Shown here one piece after another: positions 55,042-64,000 of a stretch of DNA of 64,000 nucleotides. The notes below the pieces were generated by a model. That model was not told the origin of the DNA. It saw only the letters and a program-made list of their open reading frames with translations, and ran no database searches. Origin of the DNA: Prevotella sp. E9-3 (GTDB lineage: Bacteria; Bacteroidota; Bacteroidia; Bacteroidales; Bacteroidaceae); NCBI RefSeq assembly GCF_022024015.1, contig NZ_CP091786.1, forward strand, positions 2,480,001 through 2,544,000, in the 5' to 3' direction. Within the stretch, counting starts at the first letter, position 1. Each line of letters opens with the position of its first letter. The translations under genes were made by a program, and so were the position numbers.

Positions 55042-57627
55042 TCAGTATAAGAAACCAAAATCAACCTTCTTAAAGACGGTATCCTGTAAAGCCTTCCTAA
55101 AAACATCTTTATCAACCTTCTCCAATATATCCCTACTGTAATATGAATCCTTATTAAAAAAACGATTAAAATCGGCATCATCATATGCGTTATTTACTAT
55201 ACAGCCTTCCACTTCAGATGACAAAAGGGAAACTAAACGACGCGTATAATCTTCCTTACGATCCAATAAAGATTCTAAATAATTTGCAATAGGAGTAGTA
55301 TTATCTATGAAATACCCAATATTTGTTACATATACATTAAAATCGCCATCTTTAGGAAACTCAACTTGTGAATTTCTCTTCTGAATAAACATTCTTGAGC
55401 TATAATAGGATCTGGAGTTAGAAATCATTATCATATGCCAATTGTTCACATCTCTCTTCCAATGCATAGAAACACTCTTACCGATACTTGCAAGTTCAAT
55501 TTTATCTACCTGGTACATGTCAAGAAACAAATCGTCAACATGATTCCTAAAGTGATAGTCTGCATAAATAGTCTTTTTCTCACGAGCAGCTTCTTTATTT
55601 AAAGATTCTATCACTTTTTGGGGGGATATATTACTACTTGACAATTCCGCAGCCAAATTAACCGCAGAAGAATATATTTGACTGTTTTCAGTCCAAATTT
55701 CATCAGGTAAACTATCCAAATCTGTAATATTACAGTTCTCACCGTTATCCACATAAATACATGGACTCTTCCGTAACATCTCATCAAATAATTCAGTATT
55801 CGCTAATTCTACAGAAGAGTTCTTATGCCACAATCTATCAATTGAAAGTGAAGCTCTTCTCAATATAGAGAATGAGGACTCCGTGAATTTAGATTTCTTA
55901 CCTTCTTCAACACACTCTTTTAAATATGAAGAATATATGAATCTATACATATCACTTAGTTGATGACCTTCTTCAAGTCTGTCTCGTGCGACATTTGTTG
56001 AAGGAGAATTCCAACCAACACAGTCAATCATAGCAATAAGACCTCTATTGTCAAAACCTGGGGTTTCATCTATCACCTTAATGCCTTCCACACAACAACC
56101 GATTAGCGCATTTTCATCTGAAGAGATATTGGAATCTTCATAGAAACTACTATTCCCCAAATAGGTATTCTTCTTCATCAAAATACGAAAACTCAATCCT
56201 TCCTGTTCATATTTTGCAAGATGATACAAATTATCATTGACATTGATTCCCATTTTTTTTAGAGAAGAACTCATTGCTTCGTCAATATCCCTATATCCTA
56301 TAGAGACCTCTCGTCCATCTATTGATAGGGTAACCTTACATCGAGGGATAATTATCCACTTTCTTAGATATTGTTCTATGTCTTCTTCTTTTACCGAAAC
56401 ATCGTCACGTAGTTTTAAACTGAATGTTGTACCATGTTTTCCATCAACAATATCAGAGGAAGGACCATCATGCCTTAATATATACTCCCCTTCAAGTTGT
56501 CTTATCTTGACAAGATGGACTCTATTTTCTTTATGATGGCATGTTGTTATATTAATTTCATCACTTACCATAAAACAAGTGAGGATACCTATGCCAAATC
56601 GACTAATGGGATGGAAATCAGGATGCTCTTTCTTGAATTTTTCTGAATGATAATTTGAAACTCCAACACGAAACAAATAATTTCTTATCACCTCCTCATT
56701 CATACCAACTCCATTATCGGCAACTATCAACTCACGTTTATTACTATCCCAAGAGATACTAACCTTGGGTTCATAAACTTTACTTGATTCTTTAGTCCCC
56801 GTGGTCATTAATCGAACAGCATCTATTGCATTCTGAGTGAGTTCTCTAAATACTACACTTGCATTGCTGTATAATGTATGACCTATAAGCAGTTTTAGGA
56901 TATTATCCTTATCCAATTCGAACCTGAGTTTTTCCGCACTGAAGTGTATAGTCCGAATCTTATCCCTATCAATCCCATCCCATGGAAAAGTATACTTGTC
57001 GTTATTTCTTTTTGACGAATCACGACATATCTTATTCGTTTCTATCAATTCTTTCTGAGCATAATCCAAATACTGGTTGAAATGTAAATATGCGTCATCA
57101 TCACTAAACTCGGCTCTTACCTCAAACAGATGAGCCTCTTTGTTTGGATCTACGTTATTATCTTTGTCACGTTCTTGTTTAGGTAAAATACAATTGACCG
57201 CCCGTTGCTTCACCCACTCCCTTCTACTATACGCATTTTTGGGTGATATTAAAAGAAAGTCAACATTGGGAGTCCGTTCGGATGTAACATGCAAAAGATC
57301 TGCTGTTCGTAGAACCGCTGCACAATAGATTAGGTTTACCTTCGTACTCTCATCTTGATTATACTGAATGTCAGCATCCTCTGTATTGAATACATCCAGA
57401 ATTTTTTCTTGATGTGATTTACATAAACGAGCTAAATCCATTCGAAATTTTGGATCAACTTTTGATAAGATGCCTGATAGTAATTTTCCTATAGGATTAT
57501 TATCTTCATTAGAATTTTCTACAGAAGATATCCAATTAAAGACTCTGTCACCATGATGTTTTCTAACGTAATCCTGATATATTGCTTTATCACGATTCTC
57601 ATTTTTAATGGGTATGTAATGGGAAAT
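55042..57627 (-). pseudogene. HD-CE type Hsp90-like ATPase gene, 5' end lost
   Basis: The open frame from 57627 has 862 codons; the first ATG is at 57441 and gives 799 residues. A GHKL (Hsp90-like) ATPase fold is clear: FRELTQNAIDAVRLM (N box), LIVADNGVGMNEEVIRNYLF (G1) and SRFGIGILTCFMVSDE (G2), then HGTTFSLKL. Before it, DYVRKHHGDRVFNWI and MDLARLCKSHQEKI match the later half of the HD domain that precedes the ATPase in HD-CE proteins; the first half, with the metal-binding HD, is missing. Upstream codons are open to a TAG at 57628. Known relatives act in defence or signalling systems. It is probably inactive or altered. Confidence 0.7.
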
Positions 57628-58079
57628 CTAAATGTGATTTTCTTGTTTTGTCGGGAGATAAATGGCGAGAAAAAAAATTTTTGCTTAGTGACAAATCCGC
57701 GTAAAAAGCTGAAAAACAGAATGTTTACGGAAGTCGAATCCTAAAATGATAAATGCAGACGTAAATGTCATCCCGGAGAAAGGGCTCAAATGAAAGTAAA
57801 GACATGTGGTTAAAAGTAAACCAAAAAAGTCTGATGAAATTTGAAGGGGTTTTTACCCGGTTTTCTGGTCATTTTGGCATGTTTTACCTCGAAGTTGGGC
57901 GTTAAAAAACATTAACGGCAAAAACTCCGACAGGGAATGCTCTGCGCCATAGCGAAAATGGCCGTTTTAGGGGCATTTGGGACAGAAAAAGTAATCTTTC
58001 CTTACAGAATTGTGGGATTGGTGCGTTTTTACTTGTTCCCATATATGGTTACTTGTAAAATGGTCGATTTTCGCCAAAA
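57628..58079. other. Non-coding junction between degraded group and recombinases
   Basis: This 450-base stretch separates the minus-strand genes from the plus-strand recombinases. It holds no frame I can support (a 63-codon frame at 57553 has no protein-like features). It is likely the boundary of the mobile region, since the ATPase gene is cut at its left side. No clear direct repeat marking an attachment site was found by eye. Confidence 0.5.
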
Positions 58080-58160: not shown

Positions 58161-59741
58161 ATGGCTACAATAAAGTATGAGGTGCTGAAGCACAACATGA
58201 GAAAGGACAAGACGTGGAACGTCGTCATCAGGGTCACGCACAAAAGGGTGATGAAATACATCCCTACTACGGTGTTTGTCACCCGTGACGAACTGACCTC
58301 GTCTTTCAAGATCAAGAACTTTCAGAAGAAGGAGAAATGTGAGGACATCCTCCGCATCTACCGTAAACGTATCGAGGAGGAGAACCTGGAGTTCAACGAC
58401 ATGACTGCCGATGAACTTGTAAGGAGAATCACACGCAAAGACATTGTCAAGCCAACCTTTGTTGACTTCGTGGACTATTACCAGAAGTGGATAAAGACTC
58501 ATGAGGATGAAATCAAGGGTATGGGTAACTACAAGACTGCCCTCAACTCGTTCATCAAGTTCATGGGACGTAAGGTTATCGACTGCAATGAGATTACGGT
58601 AAGACTGATGGAGTCCTATGTACGCTGGCTTGGTGACAGGCATCGTGCGGCCAACCTCTACTGTATATGTATCAAGCGCGTATTCAATGAGGCCCGCGAG
58701 ACCTACAATGACAACCTCGACGGTGAGGAGATCATCAAACGCTCACTAGAGTTCTTCGACCCTCCTGTTCATGTATGTACGGAGAAACGTGCCATTTCCC
58801 TGGAGCATCTGAGGGCTTTGGCTGCCATCCCTGATGAGGAGCGCTCGAATTCAAGCCGCAATGTGGCTCGTGACGTATTCCTTATCTCATTCATGATGAT
58901 GGGGGCCAACAGCATTGATATCTTCTCATGCAAATGGGATGGCGAGGGAAACATTACCTATGACCGTGCCAAGACAAAGGACAGGCGACCTGACCATGCC
59001 CGCATCGTCATCAAGCCGCATCCGCTGCTCATGCCTCTTATCAAGAAATATGCGTCTGTATTGGACAAAAAGGAAAGGTATGTGTTCCGTTTCAACCGGA
59101 TGTACAGAAATCCTGCCGATTTCAGCTATAACCTGAACCGAGGCATGAAGGAGGTTGGAAAGGAGATTGACGAGGAAGGTCTCACTTTTTATGCCGCAAG
59201 ACATACGATGGCGACCATTGCCTTCAATGAAACCGATATTGACAAGATGACCATACACGACATGCTGAACCATCAGCTGCCTGTGTACAAGATAACGGAT
59301 ATCTATATCAAGAAGGACTTCCGCAAAATTAATGAGGCAAACTTCAAGCTCATTGACTTTGTCTTCAATGACATGGAAAAGGAAAAGTCTGGCACTCATC
59401 AGGACAAGCATCAAGGTGGTGCCTTGTTGACTGGCGACTTCCTGACGAATGTTGTTGATACGGTTGTGGACATCACTTGGCAGTTGACTCCACAGGACAT
59501 CAACACCAGAAAGTCATGGAATGTGGAGATCAAGGTAGCATACAAGGGGCAGAGCAAGCTTATCGGAACATCGATATTCGTTTCGGAGAATGATGTTTCT
59601 GAGGATGGCCAGCTCACCAACGAATATCTTGTAAAACGTTGCGAGGCTCTTGTCAATTCCTGTAAGGAGCGTATCAGCAGGCTTGACTTGAAAGCTGCCC
59701 AGTATGACATCAATGACTTGGTCAACAAGCTATTGTCATAG
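58161..59741 (+). CDS. Tyrosine recombinase 1, with arm-binding-like domain at both ends
   Basis: The start is the ATG at 58161 (MATIKYEVLKHNMRKDKTWN). Residues 15-95 form an arm-type DNA-binding domain, about 105-200 a SAM-like core-binding domain (FVDYYQKWIKTHEDEIKGMG) and about 220-400 the catalytic domain, with LLMPLIKKYASVL, FYAARHTMATIAF (box II R-H) and ITDIYIKKD (Tyr nucleophile). The box I Arg is not in its usual place (MMGANSIDIFSCKWD), as in other Bacteroidetes enzymes. From about 451 to the end, KSWNVEIKVAYKGQ, TSIFVSENDVS and EALVNSCKERIS mirror the N-terminal KTWNVVIRVTHK, TTVFVTRDELT and EDILRIYRKRIE. The last 110 residues thus look like a second arm domain, which is unusual. 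Confidence 0.9.
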   Translation: MATIKYEVLKHNMRKDKTWNVVIRVTHKRVMKYIPTTVFVTRDELTSSFKIKNFQKKEKCEDILRIYRKRIEEENLEFNDMTADELVRRITRKDIVKPTFVDFVDYYQKWIKTHEDEIKGMGNYKTALNSFIKFMGRKVIDCNEITVRLMESYVRWLGDRHRAANLYCICIKRVFNEARETYNDNLDGEEIIKRSLEFFDPPVHVCTEKRAISLEHLRALAAIPDEERSNSSRNVARDVFLISFMMMGANSIDIFSCKWDGEGNITYDRAKTKDRRPDHARIVIKPHPLLMPLIKKYASVLDKKERYVFRFNRMYRNPADFSYNLNRGMKEVGKEIDEEGLTFYAARHTMATIAFNETDIDKMTIHDMLNHQLPVYKITDIYIKKDFRKINEANFKLIDFVFNDMEKEKSGTHQDKHQGGALLTGDFLTNVVDTVVDITWQLTPQDINTRKSWNVEIKVAYKGQSKLIGTSIFVSENDVSEDGQLTNEYLVKRCEALVNSCKERISRLDLKAAQYDINDLVNKLLS

Positions 59742-59796
59742 ACAGTATATAATATATGTACGCGCGAAAGTAATAGTTAATATCATAACAACGATT

Positions 59797-61350
59797 ATGG
59801 CTACACTAAAAGTTGAAGTTTCAAAGACTGCCATCAGCAGGAAGGGAACCTGTGAGGTTGGCATACGCCTGTATCACCACCACGAGAAAAGGCTGATAGA
59901 GACAGGTATCTATGTTTCCAAGACGGAAATGACCAAGAAGTGGACTATCCGCAATGAACTTGTGAAGCGAAAGGTCAAGGCTCTTCTGAAGGACTTCAAT
60001 GCCAAGTTGAAGCAGCTGGAGTTGGACCAGTATGACATGAACATCGATGCGGTAGTCAATTACATTGTCGGTGTCGGTGATGTCAGCATTGACATTATCC
60101 AGTATGGACGTGAATGGATCAAGGAGCATGAAGACCAGAAATGCAGCCGAAACCATCTTGTTGCCTTGAACGCTTTCATCAAGTTCGTCGGTCGTGACAG
60201 CTACATGTGTAATGACATCAGCAAGGTCTTTATGAGAAGCTTCGAGAAGTGGCTTGGTGACAAGAAGACGGCTCGCAGTGTCTATCCGCAGGTCATCAAG
60301 CGTATGTTCAACTCGGCAAAGCAGCGTTATAACGAGGGTCGTGAGGAGAACAAGGTTATCAAGAGGACTTTGGAGTTCTATCATCCGCCTCATGTGGAAA
60401 TCCAGACGGAGAAACGTGCTCTGCCTGTGGATATTATCCGGGCTATAGCAAATCTTCCCGACGATACCGAAGGAAGGGCTGTCGCCGACCTCGCCCGTGA
60501 CGTGTTCACCATCTCCTTTATGCTGATGGGTACAAACACGATAGACCTGCTTAGTTGTAAGTGGGACGAACGGGGCAACATCACTTATGACCGTGCCAAG
60601 ACGAAAGACAGACGGCCTGACCATGCCCGCATTGTCATCAGTCCGCATCCTCTGTTATTGCCTCTCATCAAGAAATATCGGTGTACCAGGCACAAAAAGA
60701 AGAACTATGTGTTTTGCTTCAACTACATGTACAAGGATCCGACGACTTTCAACCAGACAGTCAACAGGGGATTGAAAATCGTAGGCGAGAAGGTTGGTGT
60801 GCCCAACCTGCAGTTCTATGCCGCAAGGCACTCAATGGCCACTATTGCCTATAATGAAGCTGGCATTGACAAGTTCACGATACATGAGATGCTGAACCAC
60901 AAAGTGCAGGTGTTCACTGTCACGAACATGTATATCCGTCAGGACTTCTCGCGTATCAACGATGCGAACTTCCGTCTGATCAACTATGTGTTCGAGTATC
61001 ATCTGATGTCGAACAGTCGTCTGAAGGAGCTGGGTGGAACGGAAGGTGACTTCCTTACTTCGGTACATGAGGACACGGTCACGTTCAGATACTATGTCGA
61101 TCCTCTGCTGAAGCATGAGGACGGCAAGCTGGGCATCTGCTTCAACGTAGCTTTCCGTGGCCAAAGCAGGGATATAGCCACACCGCTTACAGTAGCCAAC
61201 AATGAGGTAAACTCACGGTATCAGATAGTGTCAAAGAGAGCCGTCGATGAATGCGAAGCCTTAATTGACCGATGTAACAGTAGGCTTAAAAGGACGGACT
61301 TGTCTGCTACTAACGTGACCATCCTTGATGTAATGCGTCTGTTGGCATGA
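59797..61350 (+). CDS. Tyrosine recombinase 2, paralogue of recombinase 1
   Basis: The start is the ATG at 59797 (MATLKVEVSKTAISRKGTCE), 55 bases after recombinase 1. The domain order is the same: an arm domain, a SAM-like core domain (QYGREWIKEHEDQKCSRNH), and a catalytic domain with AKTKDRRPDHARIVISPHPL, FYAARHSMATIAYNEAGID and TNMYIRQDF (Tyr). Long stretches are identical with recombinase 1 (DRAKTKDRRPDHARIVI), so the pair arose by duplication. Its last 80 residues (LGICFNVAFRGQSRDIATPL; ALIDRCNSRLKRTDLSA) again resemble the arm domain. Pairs like this in Bacteroidales act as integrases of mobile elements or as DNA invertases. Here no invertible segment was seen. Confidence 0.9.
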   Translation: MATLKVEVSKTAISRKGTCEVGIRLYHHHEKRLIETGIYVSKTEMTKKWTIRNELVKRKVKALLKDFNAKLKQLELDQYDMNIDAVVNYIVGVGDVSIDIIQYGREWIKEHEDQKCSRNHLVALNAFIKFVGRDSYMCNDISKVFMRSFEKWLGDKKTARSVYPQVIKRMFNSAKQRYNEGREENKVIKRTLEFYHPPHVEIQTEKRALPVDIIRAIANLPDDTEGRAVADLARDVFTISFMLMGTNTIDLLSCKWDERGNITYDRAKTKDRRPDHARIVISPHPLLLPLIKKYRCTRHKKKNYVFCFNYMYKDPTTFNQTVNRGLKIVGEKVGVPNLQFYAARHSMATIAYNEAGIDKFTIHEMLNHKVQVFTVTNMYIRQDFSRINDANFRLINYVFEYHLMSNSRLKELGGTEGDFLTSVHEDTVTFRYYVDPLLKHEDGKLGICFNVAFRGQSRDIATPLTVANNEVNSRYQIVSKRAVDECEALIDRCNSRLKRTDLSATNVTILDVMRLLA

Positions 61351-61404: not shown

Positions 61405-62667
61405 ATGAAGAAGTTAGTTGCATGGCAGGAAGAGCCTGTAATGGAGGCTCCTGTTGAGAAGGAAGAAATGGGTGTTACCATCAACATGGACAATGGTGAG
61501 AACAATTTTGTGGGGGAACTGGTCGATGAACCCATTGAGACACTGGTCAGGAAGCCTTCAAAAAAAGAGCTTGACAGGGAAGAGGGACGCAGGGGTAATG
61601 AGCGAAAGCCAAGCAACAAGGTGACTTATCACCCTGTTTCTGGACGGTCTGACTCTTCTCCTAGTGTTCCATATAGACCAGGAGTCGCACGTGGCAGTTA
61701 TCGTCCCACCGGTGTATTAGGCTATGTGAATCCTGAGAAAGAGGATAAATCCAGAAGACGCAGTCGTTCAAGAGACGAATTCCGTCCAAAGGATGGCAGG
61801 GAATCATTTCGTCATTTTGAGGATAGGGAGGAAAGCAGACGGCCAAGGAGAAGCAGAGATTTCGAAGAAAGAGACAGCAGAAGACTTGAGGAACATGAGA
61901 AAAGGATGTCCATGCTGGAGGCCTCTCTTCATGAGCTGTACCCTACTTCGGCTATCACCGTTCAGAAGAATCAGGAAGAGGATCCTATTCCGTCAATCAA
62001 GAAATGGACTAATGATGACATCCCAATGGAGAAATTCCAAACGGATGGTGTCAGCCAGCTCAGCGAGAGTGAGCTTTTGGCCATCATCATTGGCAACGGC
62101 CCGAAGGAGTTTCCAACTGTAGATCTCATGAATCAGATGTTGGATGACTGCGGCAATGATCTTTCCAAACTGGGTAAGAAGACAATGGAAGAACTGATGT
62201 GCTACCGTGGCATCGGTAAGAACCGGGCCATCGCTATAGTCGCTGCCTGTGAGTTTGGGAAGCGCTTTAGGAAGACTGCTCCAGAAGAGAAGCCCATTCT
62301 GAAGAATGCGTTGGCCATAGGTGACTACATGATGCCACAACTTGAAGACCTGGATGTGGAGGAGTTCTGGGCATTGTTCCTCAATCCGAAACATGAATTG
62401 CTCAGAAGAGTCAGAATCTGCCGGGGAGAGGTTTCAGAAAACGCTGCCGACCCGAGAAACATCATGCGATTCGGGGTGCTCTACAATGCGACCTACATAG
62501 TTACGGTACATAACCATGTCAGTGGGAATCCCTCTCCCACAAAATTCGACAGCACAATTGCAGCTAAACTTACTCAGGCTGCAGAGTCTGTACGGATGAC
62601 CTTGCGCGACCATATCATCCTCGCGGATGAACAATACTACTCCTTCAAGGACAACAAGAAACTATAG
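61405..62667 (+). CDS. radC: RadC-like JAB/MPN protein with long charged N-terminus
   Basis: A 420-residue protein. Residues 220-420 form the RadC fold: the N-terminal UPF0758 part with LSESELLAIIIGNGPKEF, a helix-hairpin-helix LMCYRGIGKNRAIAIVAACE, and the JAMM zinc motif VHNHVSGNPSPTKFD, ending ADEQYYSFKDN. The first 200 residues are unusual: they are rich in Arg, Glu, Ser and Asp (SRRRSRSRDEFRPK; RPRRSRDFEERDSRRLEEHE) and probably disordered, with a short coiled coil. RadC-like proteins are frequent in mobile elements of Bacteroidales; the enzyme role is not clear. It follows the recombinases by 55 bases. Confidence 0.9.
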   Translation: MKKLVAWQEEPVMEAPVEKEEMGVTINMDNGENNFVGELVDEPIETLVRKPSKKELDREEGRRGNERKPSNKVTYHPVSGRSDSSPSVPYRPGVARGSYRPTGVLGYVNPEKEDKSRRRSRSRDEFRPKDGRESFRHFEDREESRRPRRSRDFEERDSRRLEEHEKRMSMLEASLHELYPTSAITVQKNQEEDPIPSIKKWTNDDIPMEKFQTDGVSQLSESELLAIIIGNGPKEFPTVDLMNQMLDDCGNDLSKLGKKTMEELMCYRGIGKNRAIAIVAACEFGKRFRKTAPEEKPILKNALAIGDYMMPQLEDLDVEEFWALFLNPKHELLRRVRICRGEVSENAADPRNIMRFGVLYNATYIVTVHNHVSGNPSPTKFDSTIAAKLTQAAESVRMTLRDHIILADEQYYSFKDNKKL

Positions 62668-62745
62668 AAACAACCTTTAAAAGAGTTAATTTATAATAGA
62701 AATTTTCAAATTTAAGCGTTCATAAACTAATTTTTAATCGAAATA

Positions 62746-62777
62746 TTTGGCTCTTAGGGAAAGTTTATGTACCTTTG
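62746..62777 (+). promoter_or_regulatory. Bacteroidetes-type promoter for hipBA
   Basis: TTTG (62746-62749), 20 bases, TACCTTTG (62770-62777): a full match to the consensus. The start point would fall near 62784, directly at the first possible ATG (62785), which supports the second ATG at 62797 as the real start of hipB. Confidence 0.75.
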
Positions 62778-62796
62778 CAGCCATATGGAAGAGATA

Positions 62797-63111
62797 ATGG
62801 ATATAAAATCAATGCCTACAGTGCAAATAATACAGGCATTAGGCAAGAGATTTAGGGAGTATCGGATTGCAGCAAGAATGACGCAAAAAGAAGTCGCTGG
62901 ACAATCTGGAGTGAGCCTTCTGACTATCAGACGGTTTGAACAGGGTTATTCATATGACATCAAACTTGGCAATCTCATTGCACTTTTGAAGGCTATAGAC
63001 TTTGCTGATGGAATCGCTGATATTCTCCCTGAATTTCCTGTCTCGCCGTATGCACTGGCCAGACAAGAGGCAAACAAGCCAAAAAGAGTAAGACATGGAC
63101 AACAACATTAA
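62797..63111 (+). CDS. hipB: HTH antitoxin, HipB-like
   Basis: A protein of about 104 residues from MDIKSMPTVQIIQALGKRFR. A Cro/CI-type helix-turn-helix covers residues 14-70: REYRIAARMTQKEVAGQSGV and SLLTIRRFEQGYS. GGAAGAG stands seven bases before the ATG as ribosome site. Such proteins bind the operator of their operon and neutralise the HipA kinase. The gene overlaps hipA by 17 bases. Two in-frame ATGs upstream lie in the promoter or at the start point and are unlikely. Confidence 0.85.
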   Translation: MDIKSMPTVQIIQALGKRFREYRIAARMTQKEVAGQSGVSLLTIRRFEQGYSYDIKLGNLIALLKAIDFADGIADILPEFPVSPYALARQEANKPKRVRHGQQH

Positions 63112-64000
63112 AGTAACAATATGGGGCAAAGAGGTTGGCCGCCTCACATGGGATGCTAGCAGAAAGCGTTCCATCTTTGAGTATGCTCCGAACTTTCTCA
63201 AAGGAGAACTCGACATTGCCCCTTTGACTGCATCAATTTATGACCGCAGAAACAGACTCCCCTTTTACGGTGAAGCAAACAACGGGGTGTTTTACGGTCT
63301 TCCTGCTTTCATCAGCGACAGTCTTCCCGGGAAATGGGGAGATACCGTTTTCTCCGCCTGGGCCTCTGCAAACAATCTCGACGAAGATCATCTGACTGCC
63401 GTCGACAAGCTATCCTTCATTGGTAAACGAGGGATGGGAGCCTTAGAATTTGAACCCTCTCAGGAAATTGGAACAGGCGAAATGAGTCTTGAACTCGATC
63501 AACTGTATCGTAAGGCGCAAGAGATTCTGGAGCAAAGAGAGGAAACTGTTATTGCTGGCAAAGACATCACACTTGAAAGCTTATATGAAGTAGGAACATC
63601 AGCAGGAGGCCAGCATACCAAAGCCGTCATTGCGCGGAACAACAAAACCGGCGAAATTCGTTCCGGCCAAATCATGCTGCCTTCTGATTATACCTATTAC
63701 CTGCTTAAATTCGCCGAGAAAGACTATTACCCTCTCACAAAGGTCGAGATGGTTTATTATAAACTCGCGACAATGGCTGGCATTACTATGATGCCATCCG
63801 AACTAATTTCGATTGATGGTGACGAGCATTTCCTTACGCAGCGATATGACAGGAGGAATGGCAAGAAGATTCACACGCAAACACTAGCTGCCATGAATCC
63901 TAATGCTAGGAACTATGAGGATCTGATGACCGTCATAGACAAACTCAATATTCCATACAAAGAAAAAGAAGAAACTTTCAGACGCACTGTATTCAACATC
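63095..64000 (+). CDS. hipA: HipA-type toxin kinase (3' end outside window)
   Basis: The first 302 residues of a HipA protein. The N-terminal part (VTIWGKEVGRLTWDASRKRS; PAFISDSLPGKWGD) is the Couple_hipA region, followed by LSFIGKRGMGALEFEPS, then SAGGQHTKAVIARN (the ATP-binding loop region) and HFLTQRYDRRNGKK with LAAMNP. The catalytic D and N of the kinase loop lie beyond the edge. HipA phosphorylates glutamyl-tRNA synthetase or another target and causes growth arrest. The pair is coupled by overlap with hipB and sits next to recombinases, as toxin-antitoxin units of mobile elements do. Confidence 0.93.
   Translation, partial: MDNNIKVTIWGKEVGRLTWDASRKRSIFEYAPNFLKGELDIAPLTASIYDRRNRLPFYGEANNGVFYGLPAFISDSLPGKWGDTVFSAWASANNLDEDHLTAVDKLSFIGKRGMGALEFEPSQEIGTGEMSLELDQLYRKAQEILEQREETVIAGKDITLESLYEVGTSAGGQHTKAVIARNNKTGEIRSGQIMLPSDYTYYLLKFAEKDYYPLTKVEMVYYKLATMAGITMMPSELISIDGDEHFLTQRYDRRNGKKIHTQTLAAMNPNARNYEDLMTVIDKLNIPYKEKEETFRRTVFNI

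Follow-up and report, generated by a model that had tools for sequence, protein, structure and literature searches.

Two tandem recombinases with a domain behind the catalytic tyrosine

The window analyzed here, a stretch of 64,000 nucleotides from the genome of Prevotella sp. E9-3, contains two adjacent genes for tyrosine recombinases, which we call A (58161..59741, plus strand; 526 amino acids, P0001) and B (59797..61350, plus strand; 517 amino acids, P0002); an initial annotation of the same DNA had placed a tandem pair of such enzymes at these positions. The two proteins are 45% identical, sit in a 111,606-bp integrative and conjugative element of the Bacteroidales type, and each carry behind the catalytic domain a second, arm-like domain that is homologous to the N-terminal arm.

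Recombinase A consists of an N-terminal arm domain (58161..58439; residues 1-93), a core-binding domain of the SAM type (58464..58700; residues 102-180; PF13102, E 1.3e-9), a catalytic domain (58776..59375; about residues 206-405) and a C-terminal arm-like domain (59463..59738; residues 435-526), all on the plus strand; its N-terminal arm is a profile match, PF17293 lying under the cut-off (E 0.042). The N-terminal arm of B (59797..60066, plus strand; residues 1-90) matches PF17293 over the cut-off (E 9.4e-5) and is 31% identical to that of A over 90 residues, and the C-terminal arm-like domain of B occupies 61072..61347 (plus strand; residues 426-517). Across the family, PF13102 matches A, B and all 27 members, and PF17293 matches 16 of the 27 at E 0.1 or better; PF00589 matches B just under the cut-off and does not list A. 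The residues that we take to carry the catalytic roles (R269, K271, R347, H348, H371 and the presumed nucleophile Y382) are identical in A and B and invariant in an alignment of 27 rows, and the MGxNxxD stretch of both proteins is without arginine.

Homology of the C-terminal extension to the N-terminal arm

The presumed catalytic tyrosine is followed by 144 residues in A and 138 in B, and not by the 80-110 residues of the initial annotation; this part begins with the usual tail, which a linker of about 25-30 residues connects to about 92 arm-like residues, and it is to these last 92 that the resemblance noted there applies. The N-terminal arm of A aligns with the C-terminal part of A over 87 residues without a gap (24% identity; BLASTP E 5e-12, from a very small database), with a score reached by none of 2000 shuffles; the same comparison in B gives a weaker signal (E 2.7e-4 over 54 residues; 1 of 2000 shuffles), and the extensions of A and B are 33% identical to each other over 109 residues. 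A profile of 26 extensions matched the N-terminal arms of 68 ordinary-length relatives at 99.3% (E 3.7e-20, score 111, 91 columns); the best of 100 column shuffles reached 18.9% with a score of 24, and the comparison of the extensions with the core-binding (SAM) domain gave 0.1%. Because the profile comparison lies far above both the shuffles and the SAM control, we conclude that the extension is homologous to the N-terminal arm, as the initial annotation had proposed, and we infer from the sequences that it shares the arm-domain fold. A Pfam scan of the extensions gave no match for A and matched Arm-DNA-bind_5 in 2 of 11 (E 0.1 or worse), and a search of the PDB by sequence with the profile returned a single chain, a XerC-like catalytic part.

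Distribution and origin of the long forms

Of the 413 relatives that a protein search revealed, our counts cover the best 120, together with A and B. Thirty-six of these proteins have at least 460 amino acids (one, P0003, is identical to A), and the family search for the extension that the initial annotation had suggested as a check located it in 35, in shortened form in P0007 and P0017; P0095 is the only protein of this length without it. The ARH motif is present in 85 of the 86 listed relatives below 460 amino acids, and 83 of the 85 end 58-77 residues beyond it, which agrees with the earlier remark that ordinary integrases stop soon after the tyrosine; P0036 and P0061, which fall below this length and contain the motif, are shortened long forms.

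The long proteins sort into five types, named A to E. In a tree of 66 arm domains, a single branch (support 100/98) separates all 26 extensions from the rest; although its branches are long and its columns few, the simplest reading of this tree of short domains is that the extension has a single origin. An extension of A derived from the N-terminal arm of B, or the reverse, is disfavored, because the C-terminal part of A scores higher with the N-terminal arm of A than with that of B and because all extensions share one side of the branch; the scores of the C-terminal part of B with either N-terminal arm are weaker still.

Few of the genomes searched have long forms: in searches of the genus (150 and 398 genomes), the matches listed included full or partial ones for G000, G103 and G664, and a search of the family (399 genomes, E 1e-100 or better) gave a full-length match in G000 only. 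Scans of viral contigs gave one match at 27% (L082) and otherwise no relative. Among named contigs, those closest to A and B are labeled Prevotella, including P. ruminicola KHT3 and several metagenome-assembled genomes from ruminants; another contig near A and B, L045, is labeled Bacteroidales only, and carries at L045:10001-11407 an A-type recombinase whose extension ends halfway, 152 bp short of the contig end.

Selection on the extension and its surface

Between the window and four relatives for each of the two genes, the ratio of nonsynonymous to synonymous substitution rates (dN/dS) is 0.012-0.054 for the extension of A, compared with 0.018-0.031 for its catalytic domain, and 0.035-0.085 for the extension of B, compared with 0.019-0.104 (the A protein of L046 was omitted for its length); with dS close to 1 or higher in several pairs, the ratios are rough, and they indicate that the extension is under purifying selection. 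Such values, together with the survival of the extension in five diverged types, make it very improbable that the extension is a passive remnant, i.e. a functionless second arm domain left by fusion to a neighboring integrase gene, even though tandem integrase genes could offer a route for such a fusion and the half-length A-type extension of L045 belongs to a protein cluster, P0007, with 26 members.

To describe the surface of the extension, we used the 17 positions at which at least 80% of ordinary N-terminal arms have lysine or arginine; those arms keep 16.3 of them on average. The extensions keep 5-6 in type A, 3 in B, 8-9 in C, 7-8 in D and 4-6 in E. The N-terminal arms of the same family keep 14-15, 9, 9-10, 10-13 and 7-8, respectively, where the range for type A leaves out the chimera P0009 (9 of 17; N-terminal half of type B) and the value of 10 in type D is that of the chimera P0020. 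The net charge of the extension runs from −1 to +2 in type A, +1 to +2 in B, +3 to +4 in C, +5 to +9 in D and −11 to −4 in E; for types A and B together, it is −1 to +2 in the extensions vs. +7 to +11 in the N-terminal arms. The extensions retain 25-30 of 33 hydrophobic columns (28-30 in types A and B) and have two invariant cysteines, and 84% of the 26 have aspartate or glutamate at the position of Tyr33 of ordinary N-terminal arms, A excepted.

Because the extension in types A and B keeps the core but has lost a large share of the conserved basic surface, we prefer a partner-binding or regulatory role for it there. The initial annotation had proposed that arms at both ends of the protein could bind DNA; the second, homologous arm-like domain of that proposal has held up, whereas the basic positions kept in the window proteins (6 of 17 in A and 3 of 17 in B) argue against its DNA binding. 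In this rival reading, which we rate as rather unlikely, the extension would be a working second arm-binding domain, so that one protomer could grip a pair of arm sites in addition to the core and thereby alter synapsis or direction. The clear homology to the N-terminal arm in the profile comparison and the strong selection on the extension speak for it, as do types C and D, which keep 7-9 of the 17 positions, have a net charge between +3 and +9, and in which DNA binding by the extension is plausible from its residues; the low counts of A and B and the acidic extension of type E speak against it. Basic positions lost from a core that is kept, and the acidic type E extension, would likewise suit self-regulation, in which the extension folds onto the catalytic or N-terminal arm domain of its own protein, or competes with DNA, and the recombinase stays inactive until it meets a partner or an excision factor; this analysis identified no excision factor, and we regard self-regulation as improbable.

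Tandem arrays and possible chimeras

The neighborhood of the recombinase genes was examined at twelve loci of long forms in addition to the window. A is followed by B at seven of the twelve (L039-L044 and L046), as in the window, with B cut at the contig end in L043 and containing an internal gap in L040. At L047 and L018, apparently one contig, the end of an A gene precedes B; L048 has three consecutive long recombinase genes, of which the first is interrupted by other DNA; and the contigs of L003 and L045 end before any B position. At the 43 loci of ordinary relatives there is a single recombinase each, without the extension, and neither a second integrase nor a RadC match was present in the sequence available there, mostly about 1.5 kb of flank. 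Wherever the sequence suffices, the extension thus goes with two or three recombinases in tandem and, because this linkage is constant, A and B probably act together.

The tandem trio of L048 (L048:1-5231) adjoins transfer genes. Its first recombinase is cut near the ARH motif by DNA with an open reading frame on the opposite strand, the start of which we take to be integrase-like; the second and third recombinases are alike except at residues 271-330.

Several long proteins appear to have exchanged halves: P0008 and P0009 (B then A), P0019 (C then E) and P0020 (C then D), and P0011 and P0015 have the same N-terminal half and different C-terminal halves. The breaks between parent and chimera fall at 257-298, the second parents of P0019 and P0020 fitting best at 210-233; P0031 has a foreign extension, with a break near 430. 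The longest exact runs common to A and B, of 17 bp, lie within the same segment as the chimera breaks. All of these chimeras are known from metagenome protein sequences alone, and either an assembly error or ordinary recombination would be enough to explain them.

The conjugative element and its candidate arm sites

Similarity of the window to six other loci begins abruptly at position 57626, and the flanks of these loci are of five kinds, because L003 and L044 share one; as the flanks differ, target choice looks loose. The left junction carries the core TGGGAAATCT (attL; 57620..57629), and the same ten bases recur at the right junction, outside the window (G000:C1:2649226-2649235). The element interrupts a gene for an HD-CE/ATPase protein, with the C-terminal part at 55042..57625 on the minus strand and the N-terminal part at G000:C1:2649252-2649455; the gene was called at 55042-57441 (minus strand), the frame is open up to the junction, and the flanks of the element, when joined, continue in frame. 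As both junctions carry TGGGAAATCT and the joined flanks stay in frame, the element measures 111,606 bp, and the core of attP is predicted to be CACATTAGCTGGGAAATCTAAATGTG. A search for the right end in seven related genomes gave four matches, of which three reach the same right end; in KHT3, one contig of 269,435 bp has a left end (L041) and a right end (L076) about 87 kb apart, as computed from their positions.

Comparison across elements, with block lengths of our choosing, revealed a candidate arm-type site, GTCTGATGAA, at the left end (57829..57838, plus strand), with partners outside the window at G000:C1:2649142 and 2649153. The sequence does not vary among the five left ends and four right ends compared, the window included; at the right end, GTCTGATGAA at 2649142 is followed eleven bases on by GTCTGATAA, a position that reads GTCTGATGAA in L076 and L079. 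The 224 kb examined contain GTCTGATGAA as an exact 10-mer at two places, one per end, and any 10-mer common to shuffled left blocks and right blocks arose in 23 of 5000 shuffles; when repeated arm sites were sought within a single element, nothing exceeded the shuffles. Three candidate arm sites across the two ends would accord with arm-binding domains at both ends of the protein, but the single family of sites found requires no second reader, and these sites could belong to another protein.

The gene next to B encodes a RadC-like JAB protein (61405..62667, plus strand; PF04002, E 4.6e-31), and such a gene also lies downstream of A and B in L041, L042, L044 and L046 and downstream of B in L047. 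The DNA behind it (62668-64000, and on to 65894 in the extended sequence) holds variable cargo, with a helix-turn-helix and HipA pair and an AbiEi-like gene; L041, L042, L044 and L046 have other genes there. A second RadC gene is present in the element at G000:C1:2547881-2548606, as well as in L041 and L042. Relaxase, coupling protein (T4SS-DNA_transf), TraG, TraK and TraN matches in the element are above the Pfam cut-offs, and those to TraJ, TraM, MobB and MobC are below; the element also carries a topoisomerase and a serine resolvase. Two Pfam models gave no further tyrosine recombinase in the element, where one of them, PF00589, lists neither A nor B. Near the right end (G000:C1, about 2611900-2647700) is a long run of genes that, by eye, resemble those for polysaccharide or capsule synthesis. 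The interrupted HD-CE/ATPase gene (55042-57441, minus strand) matched none of the PADLOC families.

Discussion

Our analysis suggests that A and B are an IntCTnDOT-type pair that moves the element, and that the C-terminal arm copy serves mainly as a protein-protein or regulatory module; we give this reading about an even chance of being correct. An arm-domain copy would have been gained behind the catalytic domain in an ancestor of the A/B family, and the pair would now move the 111.6-kb Bacteroidales element. The N-terminal arms would still hold arm sites near the ends of the element, for which GTCTGATGAA is the candidate. The C-terminal copy of A and B, its fold core apparently retained and most of its conserved basic positions gone, could hold A and B, or adjacent protomers, in a mixed complex and may help to set the assembly or the direction of that complex.

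Several observations weigh against this reading. The extensions of types C and D are about as basic as the N-terminal arms of the same proteins, which speaks against a general loss of DNA binding; the extensions of the second and third genes of L048 are nearly the same, and hardly look like partner-specific surfaces. Values of dS near or above 1 in several pairs blunt the case from selection, and the contrast with ordinary relatives draws on 43 loci, most of which span about 1.5 kb of flanking DNA and among which at least four contigs are counted twice. A broader proposal would combine these features: a mixed integrase of two or three related recombinases, each with an arm module at either end. 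The C-terminal module, gripping DNA or a partner according to type, would build the complex and set its direction, and gene halves would be swapped between tandem copies at a conserved catalytic segment and so yield new combinations. We consider this proposal unlikely as a whole.

The integrases of phage lambda and Tn916 use an N-terminal arm domain to read arm sites away from the core and to steer integration and excision; to our knowledge, neither has a C-terminal arm domain. According to a survey of tyrosine recombinases, it was by gaining an arm domain that simple recombinases became integrases of mobile elements, and this domain allows integration vs. excision to be steered (PMC8138268). 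As far as described there, the IntCTnDOT subgroup, including CTnDOT and NBU1, has its arm domain at the N-terminus. Recombinases A and B fit this subgroup as described: they share with it the N-terminal arm, SAM-type core-binding and catalytic domains, a Bacteroidales host and a conjugative element, and the absence of the first-position arginine together with an arginine two residues ahead of the lysine (R269 and K271). In contrast to that description, which gives the arm domain at the N-terminus only (PMC8138268), A and B have a second, C-terminal copy, and recombinases of their kind occur in homologous tandem pairs or trios.

Adjacent recombinase genes are themselves known from other elements. 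Mobilizable transposons of Prevotella intermedia have two adjacent integrase genes, both of which, as the authors suggest, may be required for excision (PMC4755523); they share with A and B the adjacent pair in a Prevotella mobile element, and differ, as described, in having no C-terminal arm domain. RIT elements, in which RitA has a doubled core-binding domain and RitC an added C-terminal helix (PMC8138268), and GInt islands, with three integrases plus GinD (PMC5385486), likewise contain several adjacent tyrosine recombinases, and the descriptions in these two sources do not mention a duplicated arm domain. The Rit recombinases are assigned to a simple group without an arm domain (PMC8138268). 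RIT elements are defined by three adjacent recombinases of the simple type, and here there are two (three in L048), with arm domains. A C-terminal arm domain, or its link to homologous tandem recombinases, was not met in the open-licence PMC literature searched.

In conclusion, a family in which a copy of the arm module has been added at the opposite terminus, is maintained by selection and accompanies tandem recombinases offers a natural test of the role of this module beyond the gripping of DNA, and the located ends of the element, with its core and candidate arm sites, make tests of binding and recombination direct.
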